Assembly (NCBI RefSeq): GCF_014217875.1
Contig: NZ_CP059060.1
Location: 1,178,001-1,242,000, forward strand
DNA: 64,000 bases
Origin: Synechococcus sp. LTW-R
Lineage (GTDB): Bacteria > Cyanobacteriota > Cyanobacteriia > PCC-6307 > Cyanobiaceae
Direction of reading: 5' to 3'
Made by a program: the position numbers and the translations under genes. The notes beneath the pieces were generated by a model. That model was not told the DNA's origin. It did not search any database and saw only the letters and a list, made by a program, of their open reading frames with translations. This document shows, piece by piece, positions 1,100-57,622 of the stretch (position 1 is its first letter; each line of letters opens with the position of its first letter).

Positions 1100-2269
1100 C
1101 TACAGCGATCGGACGGCTTCTACCAAGCGCTGCCAAGGAACCGAGCCATAGCTTCCAGTTACGTTCGATGGTTCATGTCCAAGCAATTTCCCGATTGTTG
1201 CCTCGTTGAAGTTCTGCTCCCTTAACCGTGTCGCAGCATGATGCCGCAGCCCATGTGGATTAACCCCTGTGATGGATTTACAAGGCTTCGACAAGTTATG
1301 CCCCCAACGTCCATCAGGACCTTGTAATCGCGGCCATACAAAGCCAGTAGAGGATCGAAGTGGGGCGAGTATCTCTTCAAGCTCAGGATGCAGTGGTATT
1401 TCTCGATGAGAAGCACTTGTCTTTAGCGAACGCTCTAGATTCGGACGTACAACAATCCTGTCTTCAAGCAAGTCCTCAACCCTCAAGCCAGAAACTTCTG
1501 ATAAGCGCGCCCCTGTGTAATAAAGCACCTTGAGGACTGGGACATAGATGCTGCCGGTCCAGTCTGTGACTGGGTTAACAACATCCAGACGATCTTTCTT
1601 GACGACCTTAATGCGCTTCGCTAGGCCCCTGAAAATATGCGTTGAATTTGGCTTAACTTCTTCAAGGATCGACCAAAGTCCACTCAAATAATTGATTGTG
1701 GTCTTGGCTGTGTTGGCACTTACCCGTTCAAGCAAGTAAGTCCGGTAAGAGGCAGCGTGATCTTTGGTGCATGACAGCGGTGAACCAACACCGCAGAACC
1801 CCATGAACAGATCGAGCTGCTTGCACCAGCTATCTCGCGTCCGTCTTGCTGGCTGCTTGAGCTTGGTCGCAACAGCAATCAGATCCTCAGCCGTGTAGAG
1901 GGGCTCAGGAATCAGCTCACCGGTGACGACAGCGACCATCCGCTCTCGTTGGGCCTGACTCAAATCCGGATCAACCCGCGCTCCTTCCAGCAGAAGCTCC
2001 TGCACCTCAGGGTCGTCGAGAGCCCCTGTGCAGGGAAGCCGATCGATCTGCTCATCAGGGGTCAGCTGCAACTCCCTACGGGCAATCGCGATCTCTCGAT
2101 CAGTCCTCGCCAGAAAGCCTGGAAGCCGCGCTCTGGCTTCGTTGAGGGTTTTACCACCGCCTTCCTTCCAAGTGGCTTTACAGACGATCTGACGCACGTC
2201 TGATGGCACCGCTCGTTGAAGGACGTAAGACTGACGTGCCTTGTAGATGTGGCTGGCAATTTTGGGCAC
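1100..2269 (-). CDS. tyrosine recombinase / phage-type integrase
   Basis: Site-specific DNA integrase of the tyrosine recombinase family, about 389 residues. The C-terminal catalytic domain shows the expected residues: Arg in TGARLSEVSGLR, the HxxR box in HGLRHHAATRL, the following His in LLGHEP, and the nucleophile Tyr in GSYGSV close to the C-terminus. The N-terminal half looks like an arm/core-binding region (SAM-like around DSWCKQLDLFM). I place the start at GTG 2269 ([13 protein letters not shown]) because residues upstream in the longer frame (to 2338) are an Ala/Leu-rich read-through into the neighbouring gene. The gene overlaps the 5' end of the divergent aminotransferase gene, marking an element-chromosome junction near 2270-2310. 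Confidence 0.93.
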   Translation of the reverse strand: MPKIASHIYKARQSYVLQRAVPSDVRQIVCKATWKEGGGKTLNEARARLPGFLARTDREIAIARRELQLTPDEQIDRLPCTGALDDPEVQELLLEGARVDPDLSQAQRERMVAVVTGELIPEPLYTAEDLIAVATKLKQPARRTRDSWCKQLDLFMGFCGVGSPLSCTKDHAASYRTYLLERVSANTAKTTINYLSGLWSILEEVKPNSTHIFRGLAKRIKVVKKDRLDVVNPVTDWTGSIYVPVLKVLYYTGARLSEVSGLRVEDLLEDRIVVRPNLERSLKTSASHREIPLHPELEEILAPLRSSTGFVWPRLQGPDGRWGHNLSKPCKSITGVNPHGLRHHAATRLREQNFNEATIGKLLGHEPSNVTGSYGSVPWQRLVEAVRSL

Positions 2270-3467
2270 CGCTACCAACGCTTCTACCAACGCAAACGCT
2301 AGTAGCCTTAGGGATCTTTGCCCAGCACTAGCCAACAAGACCTACTTCAACTACGGCGGTCAAGGTCCCCTGCCGACCCCGTCGCTGGAGGCAATCAACC
2401 AGAGCTGGAGAACCATTCAGGAGCTCGGGCCGTTCACAACCGATGTCTGGCCTTTCATCGAGCAGGAAACCAGTCGCCTGCGCAGAGCCCTCGCGGGCTG
2501 GTGCGGGGTTGGCCCCCTTCGCATGACCCTGACGGAGAACGTCACCAGCGGCTGCGTCCTACCCCTCTGGGGCTTGCCCTGGGAGGCAGGCGATGAGCTG
2601 CTGATCAGCGACTGTGAGCATCCCGGTGTTGTCGCCGCCTGCCAGGAATTGGCTCGCCGCCATCAGCTGAGCCTGGCCACCCTGCCGGTCCTCGCGCTCT
2701 GCCAGACCACCCCGCAGGCGGAACTGGAGTCCGCCGTGCTGCAGCAGCTCGAGGCCTGCCAAACCCCCCGGACCCGGCTCGTTGTCCTCTCCCATCTGCT
2801 CTGGAACACCGGGGCAGTGATGCCGATCCCGGCGGTCGCCCATCAGCTCAAACACCATCCCAAGCAACCCTGGCTGCTGGTGGATGCGGCCCAGTCCATG
2901 GGCAGCCTTCCCGTCGCCGAAGCCGCGCAGGTGTCCGACATCTATGCCTTCACCGGCCACAAGTGGTGCTGCGGCCCCGAAGGCCTTGGCGGCGTGGCCC
3001 TCTCGGAGCGGGTCCTCGAACAAGGCCAACCGACCCTGATTGGCTGGCGCAGCCTCGAGCACGAGGGCAGCGCCGGAAGCAGCTGGCACCGCGATGGGCG
3101 CCGCTTTGAAGTCGCCACCTCCTGTGTCCCCCTCCTCAGCGGCCTGCGTCAATCGCTAGAGCTCTTGACCGCAGAAGGCGATGACGACGAACGCCTCAAG
3201 AGGATCCGTCAGGGCAGTCAGCAGCTCTGGAGTGGCCTGCAATCGCTCCCGGGTTGCAGCACCCTGCTGCCGGAGGCGCCTCCCGCAGGACTCATCAGCT
3301 TCCAGCTGGAGGGCATTGAGACCGCCCAAGCCGTGACGGCCCTCGGTCAAGCCGGGATCTGGATCCGCCGCCTCGATTCCCCGGATTGCCTCCGGGCCTG
3401 CACCCACATCTGCACCACCCCCGCTGAACTCGAGGGGTTGATCGGAGCACTGGCCAAGCTCAGCTAG
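2247..3467 (+). CDS. class V aminotransferase, cystine/cysteine lyase-like (C-DES/NifS superfamily)
   Basis: PLP-dependent enzyme of the cysteine desulfurase/cystine C-S lyase group, 406 residues from ATG 2247. The PLP lysine lies in [12 protein letters not shown], the cofactor-binding Asp in [10 protein letters not shown], and the conserved N-terminal block [11 protein letters not shown] is present. This block pattern (FNYGGQGP with the GHKW lysine) is characteristic of the cyanobacterial cystine lyase group rather than of the classical SufS/IscS housekeeping desulfurases. The first ~20 residues ([13 protein letters not shown]...) are low complexity and lie in the region shared with the integrase start, so the native start was probably altered by the insertion; the true N-terminus is uncertain. 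Its stop overlaps the convergent murE stop by two bases. Confidence 0.85.
2272..2293. repeat. tandem 10-bp repeat at the element/chromosome junction, possible attachment core
   Basis: CTACCAACGC occurs at 2272-2281 and again at 2284-2293, a 12-bp step, between the integrase start codon and the conserved part of the aminotransferase gene. An 11-bp near-match, GCTTCTACCAA, also lies in the last codons of the integrase gene (from 1117). The position suits an attachment-site core or integrase binding site. The other end of the element is outside the window, so this cannot be tested here. Confidence 0.35.
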
Positions 3468-5692: not shown

Positions 5693-6301
5693 ATGTCTCG
5701 CTACCGCGGCCCTCGCCTGAGGATTACGCGGCGCTTGGGAGACCTTCCTGGTCTCACCCGTAAGTCCGCCAAGCGGTCTTATCCCCCCGGTCAGCACGGC
5801 CAAGCCCGTCGCAAGCGCTCCGAATACGCCATCCGACTCGAAGAGAAGCAGAAGCTTCGCTTCAACTACGGCATTTCCGAACGTCAGCTGGTTCGCTATG
5901 TCAAAAAGGCCCGTGCCCAAGAGGGCTCCACGGGTACCAACCTGCTGAAACTGCTCGAGAACCGTCTCGACAACGTTTGCTTCCGCCTCGGCTTCGGCCC
6001 CACCGTCCCCGGTGCCCGTCAGCTGGTGAACCATGGCCACGTGACCGTGAACGGCCGCGTTGTGGACATCGCGAGCTACCAGTGTAAGGCCGGCGATGTG
6101 GTCGCCATCCGTGAGCGCAAGCAGAGCAAGAAACTGGCTGAAGGCAACCTGGAATTCCCTGGCCTCGCCAACATCCCCCCTCACCTCGAGCTCGACAAGA
6201 ACAAGCTCATCGCCAAGGTCGGCGGTAAGTGCGAGCGCGAGTGGGTCGCTCTCGAAATCAACGAACTGCTGGTGGTGGAGTACTACTCCCGCAAGGTCTG
6301 A
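5693..6301 (+). CDS. rpsD: 30S ribosomal protein S4
   Basis: Primary 16S rRNA-binding protein of the small subunit, 202 residues, the normal cyanobacterial length. It starts [16 protein letters not shown] and carries the S4 RNA-binding domain ([12 protein letters not shown], then [17 protein letters not shown]). It stands alone between divergent yidD and the downstream SGNH gene and is followed by an intrinsic terminator at 6331-6357. A short dyad GGTCC-CA-GGACC lies upstream at 5626-5637, of unknown meaning. Confidence 0.98.
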
Positions 6302-6330
6302 TCCCGAGTCAGACACCCCTCCGTTCACCG

Positions 6331-6357
6331 AGCCTCCGCAAACGCGGGGGCTTTTTT
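6331..6357 (+). terminator. intrinsic terminator after rpsD
   Basis: AGCCTCCGC-AAAC-GCGGGGGCT forms a 9-bp stem with one G-T pair, followed by a run of six T. It lies 30 bases beyond the rpsD stop and ends the ribosomal transcript ahead of the AT-rich insertion. Confidence 0.9.
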
Positions 6358-6433
6358 GTGACAACACAAAGGAACAGCCAAGAAATCCAATCACTCCGAA
6401 AGATTAGACTCGCAAAAGCAGACAATACAGAGC

Positions 6434-8179
6434 GTGCTGAGCAAGAAAGTCAAGCCTGTATTGGCCACCCTCGCCATCGCAGCTAGTGGAGCAATTGCCT
6501 CCAGCTCCATATACAGACACTTAGCAGTCGACAAAGTCGCCGTAGCATCTTTCTACATTCAACTAGACAAGCAGAGCTCAAGCGCATCCAAGCAACTCCA
6601 AAAGTCGCGGAACTACCTGACGAGCTTTTTCGAAAAGGACGTGCCGTTCTACTTTGCGGGCGCAGACGGAAAAACAACAAGAAGAGCACTCACAAACTGC
6701 ACATTTCACAAAGAAGACCTAAACCATATTGACTACAGGTGCCAAGCAAGAGCAAATACCAGCTCAAGCGAAAACCTGGCTCATGGCACCGCCTATCTTT
6801 ACAGGATATCGATTAATGGATACCCACGAAACGAAACCAAGCTCCTCGCGAGACTCAAGGCTAACCAAACAGAAGAACCAACAAGCAGAGCGGATAAGAA
6901 AGTTTTTTTTGATCCAATTAATCATCCAGAAACAGGAGACCCAACTCTTCAAGAATTGACAGTCCCCGTAAATATTTACGAGTCCATCAACCCTGGCCAA
7001 CTGAATGGCGAGCAAGCAACAGGGCAAAACATCTCAGCCCTAAACATCGCCCTGGGATCTCTTGTCGCAGGAATTATGCTTGCAATAATCTCAAGAAGTC
7101 ATAAAAAGAAGACTTTCACAATCTCAGCAGCACTCATAATCACAGGATACCTAATGGCAGAGCAGCTCAGTAGAGCAATGCACTGGAACCCACTTCCAAG
7201 AAACTCACTTCTAGCTAATTCTGCACTACTTGAGATTTTTGAGAACACTCGACTGAAAGTCTTATATCAATCATTTTCATCAGGAAAAACCGGAGAAAGG
7301 CTTGTGGATTCAACCTGGAGGAAAGGACACCTAGAGAACTACGGCCACCGAGAAAATGCTTTTGACAGAGTTAACAACTTCGACAAAGATGACAACGGAA
7401 TCAGCTACAGCTCAACATGCACTACCAGAGATCCAAACAAACTCGATGTACTAGCTATTGGAGCCTCTGTAGCAGAGGGAGCTCATGCCAGCTCAGTCCC
7501 AAAAACATGGTGGAATTTATCGGCAGAAAATCTAACTCTTAAAGTTCGAGAAAACGTGTGCTTTGGAGTACTTGCCAAAGGAGGAATAAAATCAGACAGA
7601 GAGCTTGAACTCCTGGATGACTTCTTGTCAAAATACACACCCCCAAAAGCATTGGTCATTGTGCATGGACAGAATGACATCCTCAACAGGACACTAAATC
7701 TCGACTCCAAGGTGCCTGGAGCAAGACAAGATTACCGTCAAATTGGAGCGGCCTCAACAGATCAACTAGTCGCTTATTCAGAGGCCATCAGAGCGCTAGC
7801 AGCTAAGAACAATATCTCCGTTTACGAAGCCATACCACCATCTGCCATAGATAAAGCATCGCTAACTCAAGCAGAAAAAGCAATCCTTGTTGGGTACGCA
7901 GGATCAAAGCTCTACGATTGGTCTCTTCCAAGAAGAATACTCAACCATTGGTTCAACGAGGCCTCAACCAGACTAAAGCTATCAGATCTACTAAATGAAG
8001 GCTACATATTTCTAGACTTAAGAGACATATTTAATTCGACCGCTACAACATTGTTTGCAGACATTTGGCACTTCGGCGACAAAGGCCATGAGATCTTCGC
8101 AGAGCACATCACCGCAGCTCTTCACAGCCAATTTCACAAGAAAGCTAGAGTCCAGTCCAAATCAACAAAAACAAATTAA
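6434..8179 (+). CDS. membrane-anchored SGNH/GDSL-type hydrolase, large (gene 1)
   Basis: A protein of 581 residues starting at GTG 6434. It has a membrane segment near residues 8-26, a ~170-residue extracytoplasmic region of no recognised family, two further membrane segments near 200-218 and 227-243, and a C-terminal domain with SGNH hydrolase blocks: IGASVAEG (Ser ~344), a Gly block (AKGGIKSD), HGQND (~410) and DIWHFGDKGH (Asp/His ~542). The predicted topology puts the hydrolase domain outside the cytoplasm. The gene is far more AT-rich than its neighbours, with AGA/AAG/ATA codons frequent, which points to transfer. Substrate is unknown; esterase or transferase action on a surface glycan is only an inference. 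Confidence 0.75.
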   Translation: MLSKKVKPVLATLAIAASGAIASSSIYRHLAVDKVAVASFYIQLDKQSSSASKQLQKSRNYLTSFFEKDVPFYFAGADGKTTRRALTNCTFHKEDLNHIDYRCQARANTSSSENLAHGTAYLYRISINGYPRNETKLLARLKANQTEEPTSRADKKVFFDPINHPETGDPTLQELTVPVNIYESINPGQLNGEQATGQNISALNIALGSLVAGIMLAIISRSHKKKTFTISAALIITGYLMAEQLSRAMHWNPLPRNSLLANSALLEIFENTRLKVLYQSFSSGKTGERLVDSTWRKGHLENYGHRENAFDRVNNFDKDDNGISYSSTCTTRDPNKLDVLAIGASVAEGAHASSVPKTWWNLSAENLTLKVRENVCFGVLAKGGIKSDRELELLDDFLSKYTPPKALVIVHGQNDILNRTLNLDSKVPGARQDYRQIGAASTDQLVAYSEAIRALAAKNNISVYEAIPPSAIDKASLTQAEKAILVGYAGSKLYDWSLPRRILNHWFNEASTRLKLSDLLNEGYIFLDLRDIFNSTATTLFADIWHFGDKGHEIFAEHITAALHSQFHKKARVQSKSTKTN

Positions 8180-8278
8180 TGGCACAGAAAAGGCTTCATT
8201 AAAATCAAGATCCTCCCAAGTCCAACAAGATTGCTTCAAAGATTAGAAGGTGTCACAAGTTGGAGCAGGACTAATAAA
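8180..8278. other. spacer, AT-rich, no gene seen
   Basis: The bases between the stop of SGNH gene 1 and the trpC remnant are AT-rich and carry no convincing frame or terminator. Confidence 0.5.
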
Positions 8279-8470
8279 CCAGCCCCCGATCAAAGTTTCC
8301 AGCGCTTGGGTGACATCCTTCTGACGCATCAACGGTTCACCCCTGGAGCCGGTCGAGATCAACATAGCTGAACAGACCCGAGACGCACTCACGAGCAGGC
8401 AGACCTTGGCACGCAGCTGGTCGGCGTGTCGCTCAATCAACTACTCAGTGGGGGCCAGATTAGTATTGAG
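8279..8470 (-). pseudogene. decayed duplicate of the trpC 3' end
   Basis: This stretch aligns base for base with the intact trpC 3' end at 10367-10590: shared runs include CCCCCGATCAA, TTTCCAGCGC, CTGGTCG and GGTCGAGATCA. By eye about four bases in five agree. The copy has lost 26 bases (the part of trpC coding for the GADAVLVG region) and its stop codon has become TGG. In protein terms DQLRAK-CLLVS and [16 protein letters not shown] are still legible. It is on the same strand as trpC and lies between the two SGNH genes, so it marks a duplication formed when gene 2 was inserted. Confidence 0.88.
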
Positions 8471-8507
8471 ATCTCTAGATATCCCCATTTAGTGCGTAAA
8501 CTGAATC

Positions 8508-8536
8508 CCTCAGACATGATAAATCTCTGAGGTTTT
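8508..8536 (+). terminator. possible weak terminator hairpin
   Basis: CCTCAGA at 8508-8514 pairs with TCTGAGG at 8526-8532, followed by TTTT. The loop is 11 bases and the T run is short. It could end transcription coming from SGNH gene 1 before gene 2. Confidence 0.4.
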
Positions 8537-8566
8537 GTACAGCACCAATATGAGAAGACTTAAACC

Positions 8567-10297
8567 ATGAAGACAAACCCAAACATAAAGATTCCCAAAG
8601 CAGCCTGGATCATACTTCTAATTACGGCGGTCATACCCGGCACATCAGAGAAGATACTCCTAACAAGATTCAACTCAGATTGCCTTCAACAAACTGATTA
8701 CTACAAAGTCAAAATAGAAACATCTGCAGCTCTCTCCCCAAGCCTGCCAAACAAAAGATCAGAGAACAAGCTCAAAGAAATAGGCTCTTACTTCCTAAGG
8801 AGAAAGCTGACACAGTCAGACTTTCCCGAAGATTTCCCATCGCACTCCGGAATATCTAAGAACATTGACCCCAGCCTCAGCAGGAGTAGAGCGGAGACCT
8901 TGCAACATTCCCCAAGCTGGTCTTGGCTTGAACAAAAGATAAATGCAGCCAACAACAGAGGACTCAACTCACAAGAAGGTTACCTAAGCAAGATCATTAA
9001 TAATGGACGAAGAGGCGGACGAATTCAAATAAGAGAATGGACCAGCAACAAGCACGTGAACGGAATATCCAGCTGGATAGACAGATTCCCCCTTGCACTA
9101 ACCAGTATCAAGATAGACAAGGACATTGAGGCAAAGTGCAGAACCACCCTTACTGACCAGAAACTAATTCAACGTGGACACCTTCTTCCGTGGATTACAG
9201 CCCCACAACTTTTCATAGACAGAAAGCAAGCTAATGCTTTATTCCATCCAAAGCTCCAAACCCTAATAGCAAAGACAGCTAGTACTGATTTCAAAAGACT
9301 TTATTTTGACTTGGAAGCCTCGAGGGGATACATCGTCTCCATTGGAACATCTGATTTTTCGCTATCAACTCGATTTACGCTAGCTGTTATCGCACTATTA
9401 TTACTAGCCTGCAGCCACAAGAGAAAAACCACAGGCCAAAGCCAAGCGAACAGGCTTTCAAGTAATCAATGTTACCGAAGCCTAATTAAAGTACTTTTGA
9501 CGAATTTATTTATTTTTGCATTTGCATGCTTTGGTGCACTTTCGGTTATAGAAATAATCTTGACTAAGACTAGCTGGCTAGACGAAGCCAGCAGCACCGC
9601 TCCCACCTATCTACCTCTCCATGAGATACTTCAATATGAGCAGGATATGCGGGAAAGATTCCTAGCTGTCAATGAATACGGTTTCGCGGATAAGCCGGTC
9701 TCTTCATATAACGAAGCTTCATCCTGCACCATCTCAATTCTAGGAGACTCGTTTGTGTGGGGGTATGGCGGGGGAGCGAAGAACGACGAGAGGTGGACAA
9801 GCCAGCTAGAGAAGCTTATTCCAAGTTGCAAGGTTCGCCATTGGGGAATCGGCGGGTGGTCCACTAAAGACCAAATCAGGTTCATGAGAGAGAAAGGGAG
9901 ACTCCATCATTCGGATCTGATCATCCTGGGTTTTGTCGACAACGACCTTGATTTGAAGCCAGAAAACGAAGGAAACAATATCCAAACAATCAGGGAGCTT
10001 AAAAGCCTGATTCAACCCACGCCATTTCTTGTGCTTTTTACCCCATGGAATGGTTCAGAGCATCACCAAACAACCTTCAAGAAGGCATCTACTTTGTTCA
10101 CTAGACTTGACATCCGCAACCACTCTTGCCTTAAGGATGTCCAGAACGTAGCCGGGGAAAGCGACGCCCCACGTCACATGTGGATAGGCTCCAACGTGGA
10201 TAGGCATCCAGGCATTCCCATTACAGTGGCAATTGCGAATTGCGCCTTGAAGCATATATCAAACATCAAGGAACTAGAGACAACTGCAATTGAATAG
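8567..10297 (+). CDS. membrane-anchored SGNH/GDSL-type hydrolase, large (gene 2)
   Basis: A protein of 576 residues starting at ATG 8567, built like gene 1: an N-terminal membrane segment (~13-30), a ~230-residue extracytoplasmic region without a recognised fold, two membrane segments (~265-285 and ~308-332), and a C-terminal SGNH-type domain. The catalytic blocks are LGDSFVWGYG (Ser ~395), the Gly block IGGWSTKDQ, VDND, and DRHPG (Asp/His ~545). Sequence outside these blocks differs widely from gene 1, so they are distant relatives rather than a recent tandem duplicate. It is AT-rich and flanked by the trpC remnant on one side and trpC itself on the other. Substrate unknown. Confidence 0.75.
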   Translation: MKTNPNIKIPKAAWIILLITAVIPGTSEKILLTRFNSDCLQQTDYYKVKIETSAALSPSLPNKRSENKLKEIGSYFLRRKLTQSDFPEDFPSHSGISKNIDPSLSRSRAETLQHSPSWSWLEQKINAANNRGLNSQEGYLSKIINNGRRGGRIQIREWTSNKHVNGISSWIDRFPLALTSIKIDKDIEAKCRTTLTDQKLIQRGHLLPWITAPQLFIDRKQANALFHPKLQTLIAKTASTDFKRLYFDLEASRGYIVSIGTSDFSLSTRFTLAVIALLLLACSHKRKTTGQSQANRLSSNQCYRSLIKVLLTNLFIFAFACFGALSVIEIILTKTSWLDEASSTAPTYLPLHEILQYEQDMRERFLAVNEYGFADKPVSSYNEASSCTISILGDSFVWGYGGGAKNDERWTSQLEKLIPSCKVRHWGIGGWSTKDQIRFMREKGRLHHSDLIILGFVDNDLDLKPENEGNNIQTIRELKSLIQPTPFLVLFTPWNGSEHHQTTFKKASTLFTRLDIRNHSCLKDVQNVAGESDAPRHMWIGSNVDRHPGIPITVAIANCALKHISNIKELETTAIE

Positions 10298-10365
10298 ATC
10301 TCTTTATTTAAAGAATAATCATGGGATCTCAGGGATCTAACGCTGATGACTTTTGCTGGCTTCCT

Positions 10366-11250
10366 TCAACCCCCGATCAACGTTTCCAGCGCCTGGGTGA
10401 CATCGTCTTGGCGCATCAGCGATTCACCCACCAGCACCGCATCGGCACCGGCGCTCTGGACCCGGTCGAGATCATCGCGGCTGAACAGCCCCGACTCACT
10501 CACCAGCAGGCAGCCCTTGGCGCGCAGCTGGTCGCCGTAGCGCTCCATCAACTGATCCGTGGTGGCCAGATCGGTGTGGAAGGTGGCCAGGTCGCGGTTG
10601 TTGATCCCAATCAGCTGGACGCCATCGAGGGCCAAAACCCGCTCCAGTTCCGCCGCATCGTGCACCTCGACCAGCACCGTGAGTCCCAGGCTCTTGGCCA
10701 CCTTGAGCAGATAGGCCATGTCCTGATCGCTCAGGATCGCCGCAATCAACAGGGCCGCATCAGCCCCGGCCGCCCGCGCCTGATAGAGCTGATAGGGCGT
10801 CAGGATGAAGTCCTTGCAAAGCAACGGCAGGTCCACGACCTGACGCACCTGCACCAGCACCTCAAAGCCCCCCTGGAAGAACGGCTTGTCGGTCAGCACC
10901 GATAGGCAGCTGGCCCCCCCAGCGGCATACCCCTGGGCAATCGCCTCCGGATCGAAGTGCTCGCGGATCACCCCCTTGCTCGGGCTGGCCTTCTTGACCT
11001 CAGCAATCACGGCCGGCTTGCAGCAGGCCGATTTCAGCGCAGCCAGGAAGTCGCGGGGGGCAGGCAGGGCCGCCACCTGACGCTTGAGTTTATCTAGGGG
11101 CACCCGATCGCGGGCCGCCGCCACTTCGCGGTCCTTCTCCCAGACGATCTTCTCGAGGATGTTGCGGGGCTCGCCCTCCTCATGGGGACAGGCGTACTCC
11201 AGGTGAGCCACCTTCACCTTCGGGTTGGGGGGCCTGCGGCGGATCTCCAT
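10366..11250 (-). CDS. trpC: indole-3-glycerol phosphate synthase
   Basis: Converts carboxyphenylaminodeoxyribulose phosphate to indole-3-glycerol phosphate in tryptophan synthesis. The product has 294 residues: an N-terminal cyanobacterial extension ([22 protein letters not shown]), then the TIM barrel with [11 protein letters not shown] (catalytic Lys), [21 protein letters not shown] (Lys), GINNRDL and LVSESG. The start at ATG 11250 has a strong ribosome site (GAGGAGAG). It follows lpdA by 10 bases on the same strand, so the two are probably co-transcribed. Its 3' end is partly duplicated at 8279-8470. Confidence 0.97.
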
Positions 11251-11260
11251 GGTTCTCTCC

Positions 11261-12703
11261 TCAGGCGGCGACCGCCATGGCGGCTTGCTTGTAGGCCACT
11301 TCAACCACCTCGCTCAAGGTGGGGTGGGTGTGCACCTCATTGGCCAGTTGCTTCACGCTTTGGCGGCGAGCCACGGCGTTGGCGATCTCCTGAATCAGGT
11401 CAGCGGCATGGAGTCCATAGATGTGGGCACCGAGGACTTCACCGGTGGCCTTGTTGAAGAGCAGCTTCATCAAGCCATCGCTCTCCAGCTCCGCCAGGGC
11501 CTTGGAGTTGGCCTTGAAATAGCTGCGCACCGAACCCAGTTCAAAGCCCTCCTTCGCCGCCAACTCCTTGGCGTCGGCTTCGCTCAAGCCCACCGAACTG
11601 ATTTCCGGATGGGTAAAGGTGGCCGCAGGGATCGAGCGGTAGTCGATCGAGCGGGGGTGCCCCAGGATGTTGTCCACGGCGACCGTGCCCTGGGCCGCTG
11701 CGGTGTGGGCCAGCATCATCTTTCCGGTCACATCACCGACCGCCCAGAGGTGGGGGACCGGCGCGCCGTTGACCAGCACCCGCAGCTGATCGTCCACGGG
11801 AATGAAGCCGCGGTTGGTCTCGATGCCGCAGGCCTCTAGGTTCAGTTCCTTGCTGGTGGGGACCCGGCCAGTGGCCACCAGGACCGCGTCGACCTCCAGG
11901 GTCTCCACGGGCTCGCGGGTCTGCATGTCCACCAGTTCGATCTGAACCGGAGCACCGGGCTTGATCGACTTGGCCAACACCCCGGAGCGGGCATCGATAT
12001 CGCGGCCATCAATCAGGTTCCGGGCAGCGATCTTGGCGATGTCGGGATCGAAGGTGGGCATCACCCGATCCAGGGCCTCGATCATCGTCACTTCACAGCC
12101 CAGCGCCGTGTAGACGTCAGCGAACTCCAGTCCGATGTAGCCGCTGCCAACGATCGCCAACCAGCGGGGCAGCCACTCGAGGTTGACGGCCTCATCGCTG
12201 GTGAAGACCGTGCGGCCGTCGGTTTCGATGCCGAGGGGCACAAACGGATCAGAGCCGGTAGCGATGATCACGTCGCGGCCGGTCAGAACCCGGTCGACAC
12301 CGTTGATCTCACGCACACCCACCTTCTGGGGGCCCTCCAGACGTCCGGTGCCGCGGATGATCGTGACCCCGGCGCGCTCCAGGGTCTTGGTCAGGTTGGT
12401 GCGGATCGTCGCCACCAGCTGGTTGGCGTGATCGGCGATTTTCTGGCGCTCAAAGCGCACGGGAGCGGCATGGATGCCGAAGCCCTTCAGGTGCTCCGCG
12501 TCAGCTAGCTCGCGCACGCGGCCGCTGGCAGCCAGCAGGGCCTTGGAGGGAACGCAACCGCGATTCACGCAGGTGCCGCCCATGTCGCGGCTTTCGATGA
12601 TCGCCGTGCGCAGCCCGTGTTCAGCGGCGTGCTTCGCGGCGTCAAAGCCGCCGTAGCCCGCGCCAATCACGATGACGTCAAAGTCGAAACTGCCGTCGCT
12701 CAC
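11261..12703 (-). CDS. lpdA: dihydrolipoyl dehydrogenase (E3)
   Basis: FAD-dependent E3 of the pyruvate dehydrogenase complex and possibly of the glycine cleavage system; it reoxidises dihydrolipoamide with NAD+. The protein has 480 residues: FAD Rossmann motif [10 protein letters not shown] near the N-terminus, redox disulfide [16 protein letters not shown]-binding [10 protein letters not shown], second FAD motif AVGDVTG, and the C-terminal active-site HTHPTLSE. I place the start at GTG 12703 ([14 protein letters not shown]), which matches the family; the frame stays open to 12943 but overlaps the next gene. Confidence 0.97.
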
Positions 12704-12738
12704 CTGAGGCCTGCCCAATTGGGGGGCATTCTCCCCTG

Positions 12739-13545
12739 TCAGCCCCCCAAACCCAACTTGTGTTGCTGCCGCCACCGCTCCAGCAGCAGAGGAGCCGCCG
12801 CCACGCCGACGTTTAGGGACTCCGCGGCCGTGCTGTGGGGAATGGTCACCCGATGACTGGCCAGGGCCGCCAGCTCCGAATGGAGCCCAGCTCCTTCGTT
12901 GCCCAGCAACAGCACCGTTGGCCGGGTCCAATCCAACTCCCAATAGGGAACAGTCCCGGCCTGATCCACCAGGGTGGCCACCACGTGATGGCCTGCGGCC
13001 CGCGCCTGCGCGAGTCGCTCCGCTAAGCCACTCCGATCGGGATCACGGCGGTGGGGCAGAGCAAGAGCCGCCCCCGCCGAAGCCCGCAACACCTTGGGCT
13101 GACAGGGATCAGCCCCGCCCCCCAGCCAAAGGTCATCCACCCCCGCCGCCAGGGCCGTGCGCATCAAGGTGCCGAGATTGCCGGGATCCTGGAGTTGATC
13201 TAAGGCCAACACAAAGGAGCCCAGGCCCTTCTTCTTCGGCAGGGCCTCCTGGGGCAGCGTGGCCACCACCCCATCCGGGGTCTCTGTGGTGGCCACAGCC
13301 GCCAGCACAGCCTCGCCTGCCGGCTGCAGCCGCTCCTCGGGCAGGCCGTCCAAGAGGGATCCGTGGCGCTCTAGCCAGGCCGGGGTCGCCAGCACCTGCT
13401 CGGGCAACAGGCCCAGGCGAACGAGTTCTTGAAGCTGATGGGTTCCCTCCACCAACAACAGGCCCTGCTCCCGGCGACCTTTCGGCTGATGCAGGGCGCG
13501 CAGGCGACCCACCAGGGGGTTGCGGCGGCTGGTGATCAGCTCCAT
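12739..13545 (-). CDS. TrmH/SpoU-family RNA 2'-O-methyltransferase
   Basis: SPOUT-class methyltransferase of 268 residues. The N-terminal substrate-binding domain (RNPLVGRLRALHQPKGR) resembles the RlmB/23S rRNA group; the three SpoU motifs are visible: DQLQDPGNLGTLMRTA, LLGNEGAGL and IPHSTAAESLNVGVA. It probably modifies ribose in rRNA or tRNA, but the exact base cannot be read from sequence. Its ATG shares one base with the stop of the 82-residue gene upstream (TGATG). Confidence 0.9.
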   Translation of the reverse strand: MELITSRRNPLVGRLRALHQPKGRREQGLLLVEGTHQLQELVRLGLLPEQVLATPAWLERHGSLLDGLPEERLQPAGEAVLAAVATTETPDGVVATLPQEALPKKKGLGSFVLALDQLQDPGNLGTLMRTALAAGVDDLWLGGGADPCQPKVLRASAGAALALPHRRDPDRSGLAERLAQARAAGHHVVATLVDQAGTVPYWELDWTRPTVLLLGNEGAGLHSELAALASHRVTIPHSTAAESLNVGVAAAPLLLERWRQQHKLGLGG

Positions 13546-32476: not shown

Positions 32477-33154
32477 ATGTCGGTGTCAGCCCCCTACTAC
32501 GGCGATTCAGCCGTGATGCGCACCCCACCGCCTGACCTTCCCTCCCTGTTGCTGAAGGAGCGGATCGTCTACCTGGGTTTGCCCCTGTTCAGCGATGACG
32601 ATGCCAAGCGTCAGATGGGCATCGACGTCACCGAGTTGATCATTGCCCAACTCCTCTATTTGGAGTTCGACAACCCGGATAAGCCGATCTTCTTCTACAT
32701 CAACTCCACCGGCACCAGCTGGTACTCGGGTGATGCCATCGGCTTTGAGACCGAAGCCTTCGCCATCGCGGACACCATCCGCTACGTGAAGCCCCCGGTG
32801 CACACCATCTGTATCGGCCAGGCCATGGGAACCGCGGCGATGATCCTCAGCGCCGGCACCAAGGGCCACCGCGCGGCCCTGCCCCACGCCTCGATCGTGC
32901 TGCACCAGCCCCGCAGCGGTGCCCGCGGCCAGGCCAGCGACATCCAAATCCGGGCCCAGGAGGTGCTGCACAACAAGCGCACCATGCTCGAGATGCTCGC
33001 GGCCAACACCGGCAAGAGCCCCGAAGAGCTCTCCAAGGCCTCCGATCGGATGACCTACCTGACTGCCGAGCAAGCGGTGGACTTCGGACTGATTGACCGG
33101 GTCCTGACGAGCCAAAAAGACCTCCCCTCAACCGTGCCCGGCGGCATCGGCTGA
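32477..33154 (+). CDS. clpR: ClpR, proteolytically inactive Clp protease core subunit
   Basis: ClpP homologue that joins ClpP3 in the cyanobacterial ClpP3/R core. The position of the catalytic Ser is lost: the family GxAASMGA block reads IGQAMGTAAM, with Gly at the Ser position, while the His (VLHQPRSG) remains. This loss is characteristic of ClpR, not decay. The 225-residue length holds if ATG 32477 (MSVSAPYYGD) is used; ATG 32456 adds seven residues. The clpP3 gene follows 36 bases later. Confidence 0.93.
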   Translation: MSVSAPYYGDSAVMRTPPPDLPSLLLKERIVYLGLPLFSDDDAKRQMGIDVTELIIAQLLYLEFDNPDKPIFFYINSTGTSWYSGDAIGFETEAFAIADTIRYVKPPVHTICIGQAMGTAAMILSAGTKGHRAALPHASIVLHQPRSGARGQASDIQIRAQEVLHNKRTMLEMLAANTGKSPEELSKASDRMTYLTAEQAVDFGLIDRVLTSQKDLPSTVPGGIG

Positions 33155-33190: not shown

Positions 33191-33793
33191 ATGCCCATCG
33201 GTACTCCGAGCGTTCCTTACCGCCTCCCCGGCAGCCAGTACGAGCGCTGGGTCGACATCTACACCCGCCTCGGCGTCGAGCGCATCCTCTTCCTCGGCTC
33301 TGAGGTCAACGACGCCATTGCCAACAGCCTGGTAGCCCAGATGCTGTACCTCGACTCCGAGGACAACAGCAAGCCGATCTACCTGTACATCAACTCCCCC
33401 GGTGGCTCGGTGACCGCGGGGCTCGCGATCTACGACACGATCCAGTACATCAAGAGCGACGTGGTGACCATCTGCGTCGGCCTGGCCGCCTCGATGGGCG
33501 CCTTCCTGCTGGGCGCCGGCACCAAGGGCAAACGCCTGGCCCTGCCCCACAGCCGAATCATGATTCACCAACCCCTGGGCGGCACCAGCCAACGCCAGGC
33601 CAGTGACATTGAGATCGAAGCGCGGGAAATCCTCCGCATGAAGGACATGCTCAACAACAACATGGCGGGCATGACCGGCCAACCGGTCGAGAAGATCGAG
33701 AAGGACACCGACCGGGACTACTTCATGAGCGCCGAGGAGGCCATGAACTACGGCCTGATCGACCGAGTGATCGCCCACCCCAGCGAAGCCTGA
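33191..33793 (+). CDS. clpP: ATP-dependent Clp protease proteolytic subunit (ClpP3-type)
   Basis: Active serine peptidase subunit of 200 residues. The triad is intact: Ser in [10 protein letters not shown], His in MIHQPLGG, Asp in [29 protein letters not shown] is the oxyanion-loop block. Directly after clpR, in the order known for the essential ClpP3-ClpR pair of cyanobacteria. Confidence 0.96.
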
Positions 33794-43276: not shown

Positions 43277-44068
43277 TTAAGCGGCGCGCGACCCCCGCTC
43301 GAGGGGCCGAATGGTGAGGCCACGGCCCAGCAGGTCGGTCTTGATCTCCTCCACCGTCAGCACCCCGTCATGCAGCAGCGAGGCCAGCAGGGCTGCCGAG
43401 GCGTGCCCGCCAGTCGCTGCGGCATCCAGGGCCTGGGCGATGTGGTCGATGCACCCGGCACCACCGCTGGCGATCACCGGCACATCCACCGCGTCCGCGA
43501 CCGCCCGGGTCAGGTTCAGCTCATAGCCGGCCTGGGTGCCATCGCCATCCATGGACGTCAGCAGGATCTCGCCCGCACCGAGCTCCACCACGCGCCGGGC
43601 CCACTCGACCGCATCCAGACCGGTGTTCTCACGCCCACCTTTCACATAGACGTCCCAGCCGCCCTCGCGGCGGCGGGCATCGATGGCCACGACGATGCAC
43701 TGGCAACCAAACCGTTCGGCGCCGCGGGCCACCAGTTCGGGATCGCGGACCGCCGAGGAGTTCAGGCTCACCTTGTCCGCCCCGGCCCGCAGCAATTCGG
43801 TGATGCCCTCCACCGAACTGATGCCGCCGCCGACGGTGAAGGGGATCGTGACCGCCTCGGCGGTGCGCCGCACCAGGTCCACCAAGGTGGCCCGCCCCTG
43901 GTGGCTGGCGGCAATATCCAAGAAGACCAACTCGTCGGCCCCGGAGGCGCTGTAGCGGCAGGCCAGCTCGACGGGATCGCCGGCGTCTCGCAGGCCGACG
44001 AAGTTCACCCCCTTGACCACCCGGCCATCGGCCACATCGAGGCAGGGAATGATCCGTTTGGCGACCAT
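43277..44068 (-). CDS. hisF: imidazole glycerol phosphate synthase, cyclase subunit
   Basis: TIM-barrel cyclase partner of HisH in histidine synthesis; 263 residues. [23 protein letters not shown], with the catalytic Asp in CLDV and the second in [13 protein letters not shown], plus the phosphate loops VGGGISS and IASGGAG. Normal length. Confidence 0.98.
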
Positions 44069-50444: not shown

Positions 50445-50447
50445 CCC

Positions 50448-51347
50448 CTACTGCTCCGAGCGCAGGTTGTTGCTGCTGCCGCTTAACCAACTCTCAAGCC
50501 CCTCCCCAAGGAACGAGAGCCCGAGCACGAGAACAAACATCGCTACACCGGGGTAGAGGGCCGTCCACCAGACCCCGGTGGGCAGGGCATTGAGGGCCTG
50601 CTGCAGATCACTGCCCCACTCCGGCACCGTCTCCGGCAGCCCCAGCCCCAGAAACCCCAGGCCACCAAGCACCAGCACCGCATCAGCAGCGTTCAGGGTC
50701 AGCAGGACCGGCACCGAGGTGATGACGTTGCGGAAGAGGTAGCGGCGCAGGATCCACCAGGGGCTCGCCCCCAGGGAGCGGGCCGCTTCCACGTAGAGCT
50801 CCGCCTTCACCTGGGCGGTCTGGTTGCGGACCACCCGGAAGTACTGCGGGATGTAGACGACGCAGAGGGCGGCGGCGGCATTGGGCAGGCCCTTGCCCAG
50901 CAAGAAAGCCAGCACCACCGACAAGAGCAGAACCGGCAGCGTGTAGAGCGTGTCCATCAGCAGCACCAGGACCCGGTCCAGCCAGCCACCGAGATAACCG
51001 CTGACCATCCCCAGGGGTACGCCGATCACCAGGGCCGAAATCAGGGCCACCACCACGACCTGGAGGGCTACCCCGCTGCCCGCCAGGGTGCGGCTGCAGA
51101 CGTCGCGGCCGAGGCGATCCGTGCCGCACCAGTGCTGCCAGGACGGCGGCGCATAGATCGGGTTCTCCAGCCCGCCATTCACCTCAGGCAGCAGACCCAG
51201 GTGAATGAACAGCGGCGTCAGCACCGCCACCAGGGCATAGACCAGGACGATCACCACACCCCAGCGGGCCATCCGGGCCGCGAGGCTGCGGGGGCGCCAG
51301 GCGAGAAGGCGCGATGCCGCAGATGTGGGTAAGACAGGGGGAGTCAT
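50448..51347 (-). CDS. ABC transporter permease, DppC/OppC type (orphan)
   Basis: Inner-membrane permease of 299 residues from ATG 51347 (MTPPVLPTSAASR). It has about six hydrophobic helices, the N-terminal TDRLGRDVCSRTLAG block of DppC-like proteins, and the EAA loop EAARSLGASPWWILRRYLFRNV. It would import peptides or nickel with a DppB partner, ATPases and a binding protein, none of which are in the window. Its start lies 11 bases from the divergent response regulator start. Confidence 0.9.
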   Translation of the reverse strand: MTPPVLPTSAASRLLAWRPRSLAARMARWGVVIVLVYALVAVLTPLFIHLGLLPEVNGGLENPIYAPPSWQHWCGTDRLGRDVCSRTLAGSGVALQVVVVALISALVIGVPLGMVSGYLGGWLDRVLVLLMDTLYTLPVLLLSVVLAFLLGKGLPNAAAALCVVYIPQYFRVVRNQTAQVKAELYVEAARSLGASPWWILRRYLFRNVITSVPVLLTLNAADAVLVLGGLGFLGLGLPETVPEWGSDLQQALNALPTGVWWTALYPGVAMFVLVLGLSFLGEGLESWLSGSSNNLRSEQ

Positions 51348-52081: not shown

Positions 52082-52326
52082 CACGCCTGGTGGCCGTGGT
52101 CGACGACGATCCGCGCATCCGCGAGCCCTTGGCCGCCGAGCTGGAGGGCCTGGGGGCCGAGCTCTACCGCCGCTGCACCGAGAACCTTCGCCTCGAGGCC
52201 CAGACCAAGTTCCGCAAAAGCGCCCACCAAATGGGGCAGCGGGTCTACTGCGCCGAAGAGCGGGCCCTGCTCGCCCGCGATAAGGTCCACCGCAGGGCTG
52301 AACCTTTGGTTATGCCGGGCTCATGA
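52078..52326 (+). pseudogene. chimeric remnant: receiver-domain start fused to a decayed gene end (copy 1)
   Basis: The 82-residue frame starts as a response-regulator receiver (MTRLVAVVDDDPRIREPLAAELEGLGAE), then stops resembling one. From base 52189 to 52301 it matches 57509-57622 almost base for base (CGCCTCGAGGCCCAGACC, TACTGCGCCGAAGAGCGG, CTGCTCGCCCGCGAT). Relative to that copy it has lost one C near the end (CGC-AGGGCTGA against CGCCAGGGCTGA), so it reads past the original stop for 11 more residues. It looks like a deletion fusion of two gene pieces rather than a working protein. Confidence 0.75.
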
Positions 52327-57167: not shown

Positions 57168-57508
57168 CCCTTAAGCCACAGCGATGACCTCGTTGGAGAG
57201 GGGGATGACCTGATCGCCGTAATCGCCAATCAGGACCAGCCGGTCGAGATCCAGCGCTACAACCTCAAGCTCGTCTGAGGGGCCCCATGACACGCCTTTC
57301 CCCTTCCTGGGTAGTCGGCAGCGGCCGCCCAGCCACCAAAAGCCCGGCGCCGACTCCTGCTTGGGGATGGATCGGCTGCCCGCGGAATGGGTTCTGGTTA
57401 CAGCCTTCCTGAAGTGATGATCGCCTCGGCGATGCTCGCGGCCGTCGTCAGCAGCTCCTTGCGGATGACCAGCTCACAGAAGAACGGCTTTACGACATCG
57501 CTGTGCTG
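57168..57508 (+). pseudogene. decayed prepilin-like gene fragments
   Basis: No intact gene is present after the HlyD stop. One frame at ~57183-57277 reads DDLIAVIANQDQPVEIQRYN then stops. Another, from ATG 57387, reads GSGYSLPEVMIASAMLAAVV, which is a type IV prepilin cleavage motif (G, then hydrophobic, Glu at +5) and the start of its helix, after which the frame is lost. The true continuation (TEERLYDIAVLRLEAQ) is in a different frame and runs into the segment 57509-57622. This reads as the debris of one or two pilin-like genes. Confidence 0.6.
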
Positions 57509-57622
57509 CGCCTCGAGGCCCAGACCAACTTCAGCAAGAGCGCCCACCAACTGGGCCGACGCGACTACTGCGCCGAAGAGCGGGCCCTGCTCGCCCGCGA
57601 TCAGATCAACCGCCAGGGCTGA
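57509..57622 (+). pseudogene. decayed gene end (copy 2 of the sequence at 52189-52301)
   Basis: In frame from about 57482 it reads LRLEAQTNFSKSAHQLG then RRDYCAEERALLARDQINRQG and stops at TGA 57622. It is nearly identical to 52189-52301, in the same orientation, on the other side of the secretion genes. It appears to be the C-terminus of the prepilin-like gene whose start lies at 57387. Confidence 0.75.

Follow-up and report, generated by a model that had tools for sequence, protein, structure and literature searches.

The window analysed in this work comprises 64,000 nucleotides of Synechococcus sp. LTW-R (contig NZ_CP059060.1, positions 1,178,001 to 1,242,000 of the forward strand), and all coordinates given below without a further label are positions in it. 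This report concerns the interval between rpsD and trpC, in which a decayed copy of the trpC 3′ end lies between two genes for SGNH/GDSL-type proteins. rpsD (5693–6301, plus strand), the left core gene of this variable site, is followed by a terminator-like site at 6330–6353; intact trpC (10366–11250, minus strand) encodes an indole-3-glycerol phosphate synthase of 294 residues (PF00218, E 2e-88). The whole inserted stretch, 6361–10365, is absent from the relatives G018, G023 and G020. These three run colinear with the window as far as 6360, a little beyond the terminator of rpsD, and resume at 10366; that terminator and the stop codon of trpC bound the insert. It holds, from left to right, gene 1 (6434–8179, plus strand, 581 residues), the relic of the trpC 3′ end (8279–8460, minus strand, corresponding to codons ~227–294 and the former stop), an A+T-rich join region (8461–8566) and gene 2 (8567–10297, plus strand, 576 residues). 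No core gene at the join has been lost relative to the relatives. The host is a picocyanobacterium of freshwater type, and a broken trpC tail between two foreign genes suggests the scar of a second piece of DNA joined beside an earlier one.

The relic is a diverged copy, in the same orientation, of the last 68 codons and the stop of intact trpC (10366–10571, the other copy of the repeat). BLASTN aligned 8280–8460 with 10367–10571 at 142 bits (E 1e-37), with identity in 152 of 207 columns (73%, 28 gap columns counted) or, over aligned bases only, in 152 of 180 (84%), leaving 28 differences. The local alignment score of the two segments was 208, and the best of 1000 dinucleotide shuffles reached 37, so the match to the trpC terminus first proposed in the initial annotation is real. 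Its extent had been drawn slightly wide, to 8470 in the relic and 10590 in trpC: ungapped extension reaches 8469 and 10580, and the best local alignment ends at 8460 and 10571. Two features described there, a deletion of 26 bases and the loss of the stop (seen as TGA to TGG), were recovered, together with a 2-base insertion that had not been listed. Read as trpC, the relic contains stops and a frameshift and has lost its coding constraint. When the genome was searched with it at E ≤ 0.001, the only matches were the query itself and the trpC end; there was no third place.

The two edges of the relic differ in kind. Facing gene 1, homology starts at what was the trpC stop codon; facing gene 2, it breaks off abruptly inside trpC at 8460, 106 bases before that gene, and ends at an 8-base identical stretch, GGCCAGAT. 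The complete trpC end lies beyond gene 2. The G+C content of 8280–8463 is 58.7%, that of the adjoining spacers 38–40%. An extension of the relic to 8566, prompted by a translated match, was rejected because shuffled sequence matches the further course of trpC as well as the DNA of 8464–8566 does (493 of 1000 shuffles equally good). The insert is thus flanked by direct repeats of one locus, the trpC end, one complete and one truncated, as in the scar of a partial duplication, and the trpC stretch that was duplicated measures about 206 bp. When the spacers next to the relic and next to trpC were set against those of relatives, the best of six comparisons was an 8-base match to G020 (12 of 500 shuffles equal), which was not counted as evidence.

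A layout of displaced 3′ end, cargo and complete gene would also be left by a site-specific integrative element that had entered the trpC 3′ end, supplied a replacement end, displaced the old end outward and since shrunk to gene 2, and the end of homology at the short identical stretch is in keeping with such an element. In Escherichia coli, integrated e14 displaces the 3′ end of icd; the trpC site resembles icd/e14 in that the displaced 3′ end is left at the opposite border of the insert, and differs in that no integrase or attachment apparatus was found between rpsD and trpC. No integrase was seen in 6361–10365, where both open reading frames (ORFs) of at least 100 residues that lie wholly inside match SGNH families; shorter remnants were not searched. 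The only recombinase identified near the island, a tyrosine recombinase ORF at 1100–2338 (minus strand), is separated from it by rpsD and by about 3 kb of DNA that the relatives also have, and a pattern-limited scan of viral contigs found no trpC. Because no integrase was found in the inserted stretch, an element of this type is disfavoured, and we regard it as unlikely.

The manner in which the relic has diverged was assessed by codon position. Positions 1 and 2 account for 13 of its 28 differences from the trpC of the same genome (14 of 30 when counted over 182 columns, to 8463, the two added columns both being mismatches). Between this genome and G018, its nearest relative, the same columns show 10 differences, none at positions 1 and 2 (Fisher p 0.008 against the relic), and the whole of trpC shows 50, of which 9 are at those positions (p 0.010). 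Since its differences are spread over the codon positions, the relic has evolved without coding constraint, in the manner of a pseudogene, and it provides a rough neutral clock for the event that left it. At positions 1 and 2 it has changed at 13 of 119 sites, or 0.109 per site (95% interval 0.059–0.180), and at 14 of 120, or 0.117 (0.065–0.188), with the two extra columns. Four-fold degenerate sites differ between this genome and G018 at 149 of 796, corrected to 0.215 and hence about 0.108 per lineage. As the two rates are so close, the relic dates roughly from the time at which this lineage and that of G018 separated, with a wide error.

Along trpC itself, nine blocks of 98 bases show 0.92–0.97 identity to G018 with no local shift. 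Beyond trpC, the lpd stretch stands closer to G018, with 15/144 four-fold sites differing, compared with 134/652 for desulfurase, murE and trpC combined (p 0.004). Within 10369–13000, this lower divergence of lpd may mark a recombination tract to the right of trpC or reflect variation from gene to gene; it cannot be tied to the event that produced the relic.

Among 24 genus relatives, trpC was present in 21, with a single match each. rpsD and trpC were on the same fetched stretch in 18 of these relatives: the interval is empty in 13 (61–142 bases, rpsD stop included), among them G018 (90 bases), and contains 527–1131 bases in five. The cargo of the five filled intervals consists of a small secreted-type ORF (two), nucleotidyltransferase-like ORFs (two) and a longer membrane-type ORF (one), these names being readings of sequences and translations and not profile results. 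The nucleotidyltransferase-like ORFs lie at L092:6883–7729 and L095:6883–7706, and the neighbouring ORF in L092 resembles, by eye, a HEPN-type partner. rpsD was further present at 29 of 73 named picocyanobacterial trpC loci (80 minus 7 dropped), with rpsD–trpC gaps of 67–2777 bases; a reductase-like ORF (by eye), read in the same direction as trpC, occupies several of the longer gaps, and the site is therefore not empty in all outgroups. With relatives either empty or carrying differing cargo, the rpsD–trpC interval is a variable site. A literature search for rpsD, trpC, cyanobacteria and genomic island together found no paper.

The relic itself was found only in this genome among those compared. 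A second trpC piece occurred in none of the 21 genus relatives with trpC and at none of 76 loci (the 73 named loci and three fetched stretches). The same relic in all relatives regardless of gene 2, which the initial annotation had named as fatal to its proposal, is thus not what is seen. Neither gene 1 nor gene 2 had a match at E ≤ 0.01 in those 76 loci. Only the trpC ends matched when the island DNA was compared with 25 genus genomes, and no plasmid carrying island DNA was found. Of the proposal that gene 2 came in with, or recombined through, a trpC 3′ end, a recombination join through such an end is supported, the site being empty in G018 and in 13 of the 18 linked genus relatives. The comparison of intervals that had been suggested for it yielded these empty versions and no version with a single one of the two genes.

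Short tandem duplications are common, and the trpC end might first have been doubled in this way at an empty site, genes 1 and 2 entering later on either side of the relic. The differing cargo of the relatives is compatible with such a history, which requires more events and predicts an intermediate, a bare duplication, that was met in none of the 21 genus relatives with trpC and at none of the 76 loci. We consider it quite unlikely.

The two genes that enclose the relic were compared with protein families and with each other. Gene 1 passes the cut-off of PF00657 (27.9 bits; cut-off 23.6) and is borderline for PF13472 (29.6 against 32.9), but reaches 33, over the cut-off, in its longer open frame; it also gave one weak match to a phage tail family (E 1e-4). 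Gene 2 stays under the PF13472 cut-off of 32.9 both times it was scored (28.7 and 31.5), so its SGNH assignment is below threshold; it also weakly resembles a GDSL-like chain (E 0.003). Of the three PF13472 matches in the genome, two lie side by side in 6361–10365. Membrane segments are suggested by hydropathy in both proteins, at residues 9–27 and 200–218 of gene 1 and at residues 7–25, 264–282 and 314–332 of gene 2. From the family, both would hydrolyse esters or transfer acyl groups, probably at the cell envelope. Structure prediction without an alignment gave a mean predicted local distance difference test (pLDDT) of 37.8 and 34.2 for the two proteins and was unusable.

No clear homologue of either gene was found in searches of 300 genomes of the family and 388 of the class (the two draws overlap, and each includes this genome). 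Gene 2 had three weak matches in the family set and six in the class set, of about 75–115 residues in the C-terminal half; gene 1 had none in the family set and one in the class set. A pattern-limited scan of genome contigs did not find gene 2, and neither gene was found in pattern-limited scans of viral contigs or in phage records. There was no match to defence models, no RNA family reached the gathering threshold in 6200–10700, and promoter-like and terminator-like sites were about as numerous as in shuffled sequence.

Both genes are SGNH-type, of similar length, and each stands ahead of a trpC end; they might therefore be paralogues as old as the relic, produced by tandem duplication of a unit consisting of an SGNH gene and a trpC end. 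In global alignment their N-terminal parts scored above 299 of 300 shuffles (1/300 equal, Z 3.0) and the full proteins were equalled by 18 of 300. The two proteins do not align by blastp (E 0.66), the local score was at the level of shuffles (Z 0.22) and so was the global score of the SGNH part (Z 0.06), even though the relic is still 84% identical (152/180) to the trpC end. Since genes duplicated together with the relic should be roughly as alike as a copy that is dead, or more alike, a tandem duplication of the same age is very unlikely.

The best explanation, in which we have moderate confidence, is that two versions of the rpsD–trpC interval were stacked by one-sided integration, with end-joining at one end and a crossover in trpC at the other, and that the relic is the dead duplicate of the trpC 3′ end left by that event. 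Version one would be rpsD, gene 1 and trpC; version two would be gene 2 beside a trpC end. We infer the following route and intermediate. The trpC part of the DNA of one version would have been trimmed to about codon 227, and the trimmed end joined to the DNA upstream of gene 2, either directly or inside a molecule that had closed into a circle again. A crossover between homologous sequences would then have fixed the product, in which gene 1 is followed by the truncated trpC end, then by gene 2 and the complete trpC; function would have stayed with the intact trpC, and the truncated end would have decayed without selection. A repeat of the end of one gene, in a complete and a truncated copy with foreign DNA between them, is the product expected from one-sided integration of DNA that shares only that end. 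Because relatives carry variable cargo at the site, two stacked versions make the simplest history. The stranded trpC end would further show that both cargoes once adjoined a trpC end. The host genome has a ComEC-type gene, and DNA uptake by this organism is plausible.

The order in which the two genes arrived had been given as gene 1 beside the old trpC end, then gene 2. That order is compatible with the DNA and is not established by it: the mirror order, with gene 2 and trpC resident and rpsD–gene 1 with a trpC end arriving, leaves the same DNA and fits equally.

Several observations weigh against stacking. No strain with a single-gene version of the site, and no donor sequence, was found among the genomes compared; the ancestral spacer beside the trpC stop is not recognisable on either side; none of seven topologies placing the relic among this genome, G018, G023 and G020 was rejected (182 columns); and the DprA match was below its cut-off. 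The model also has to accept a coincidence for which it offers no reason: each of two separate arrivals would have carried an SGNH-type gene, and the two genes are similar in length.

A comparable product has been described for lacZ in E. coli. In PMC3240628, incoming DNA with one end in common with the chromosome mostly yielded (56 of 60 clones) the product that marks a partial duplication; the duplications measured 109–950 bp in 14 sequenced clones and were explained by trimming and re-circularisation of the molecule, followed by one crossover. As there, foreign DNA at the rpsD–trpC site lies between two copies of the homologous end, of which one is complete and the other cut short, and the duplicate of about 206 bp falls within the range seen in E. 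coli. Unlike the lacZ products, which came from selection with a laboratory plasmid, the trpC scar is natural, old and decayed, and its intermediate is deduced. Plain homology-facilitated illegitimate recombination of linear DNA, with a crossover at one end and end-joining at the other, in either direction, would account for one illegitimate join and one homologous end as well, and PMC3240628 reports this mechanism in naturally competent bacteria. At the trpC site, the abrupt stop of homology at 8460 is seen, whereas no crossover point is visible. It differs from the preferred reading in the intermediate only. Recipient DNA is generally deleted in such events, according to the same paper, whereas the trpC site shows a duplication and no loss of a core gene; we hold the linear route to be improbable.

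Insertion hotspots without mobile elements, in which recombination takes place at flanking core genes and cargo is exchanged by double recombination, are described in PMC5635113. The rpsD–trpC site resembles these integrase-free hotspots in having variable cargo between two conserved neighbours and no recognised mobile-element gene. Unlike the hotspots of PMC5635113, it appears to have gained one version beside another, and the stranded boundary-gene end would record addition, as opposed to the exchange of cargo in the hotspot model. The joining of a second DNA beside an earlier piece would be an ordinary event that is unusually legible at trpC. We suggest, tentatively, that picocyanobacterial variable loci may grow by stacking, a second version being added head-to-tail through the shared end of the boundary gene and a truncated end remaining at each seam. 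If this is true, the truncated gene end is a datable marker for each seam, and the window may hold two of them (trpC at 8.3 and 10.4 kb; the end of a 243-residue ORF at 52.2 and 57.5 kb).

The second of these was found by self-comparison of the window as a diverged direct repeat of similar strength, 52186–52301 against 57506–57622 (88%, 117 bp). Its counterpart in G023 is the 3′ end of an open ORF of 243 residues (L169:11190–11921) in an unduplicated layout; to the left of that ORF stand, with names given by eye, several prepilin-like ORFs, one ORF resembling a response regulator and, on the opposite strand, one resembling a kinase. The left copy in the present genome is joined to the beginning of a truncated response regulator, the alignments to G023 overlapping by six bases (52156–52161), and the other copy comes after a prepilin-like start; the operon between the copies looks like one for type I secretion (ABC protein, HlyD-like; by eye). 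In this comparison with one relative, G023, the second repeat is similar to the trpC scar, and it counts in favour of the stacking explanation. In the fetched stretches of G020, only 50446–51309 was matched in this region.

Three further features of the window were recorded. At its left end, 1–2312 is A+T-richer and is unmatched in the stretches fetched for G018, G023 and G020; it carries the tyrosine recombinase ORF (1100–2338) and represents another insertion beside a conserved block. A diverged direct repeat pairs 32850–32943 with 33513–33609 (75% over 97 bp), and 43745–43868 forms an imperfect palindrome of 124 bases, 69% identical to its own reverse complement.
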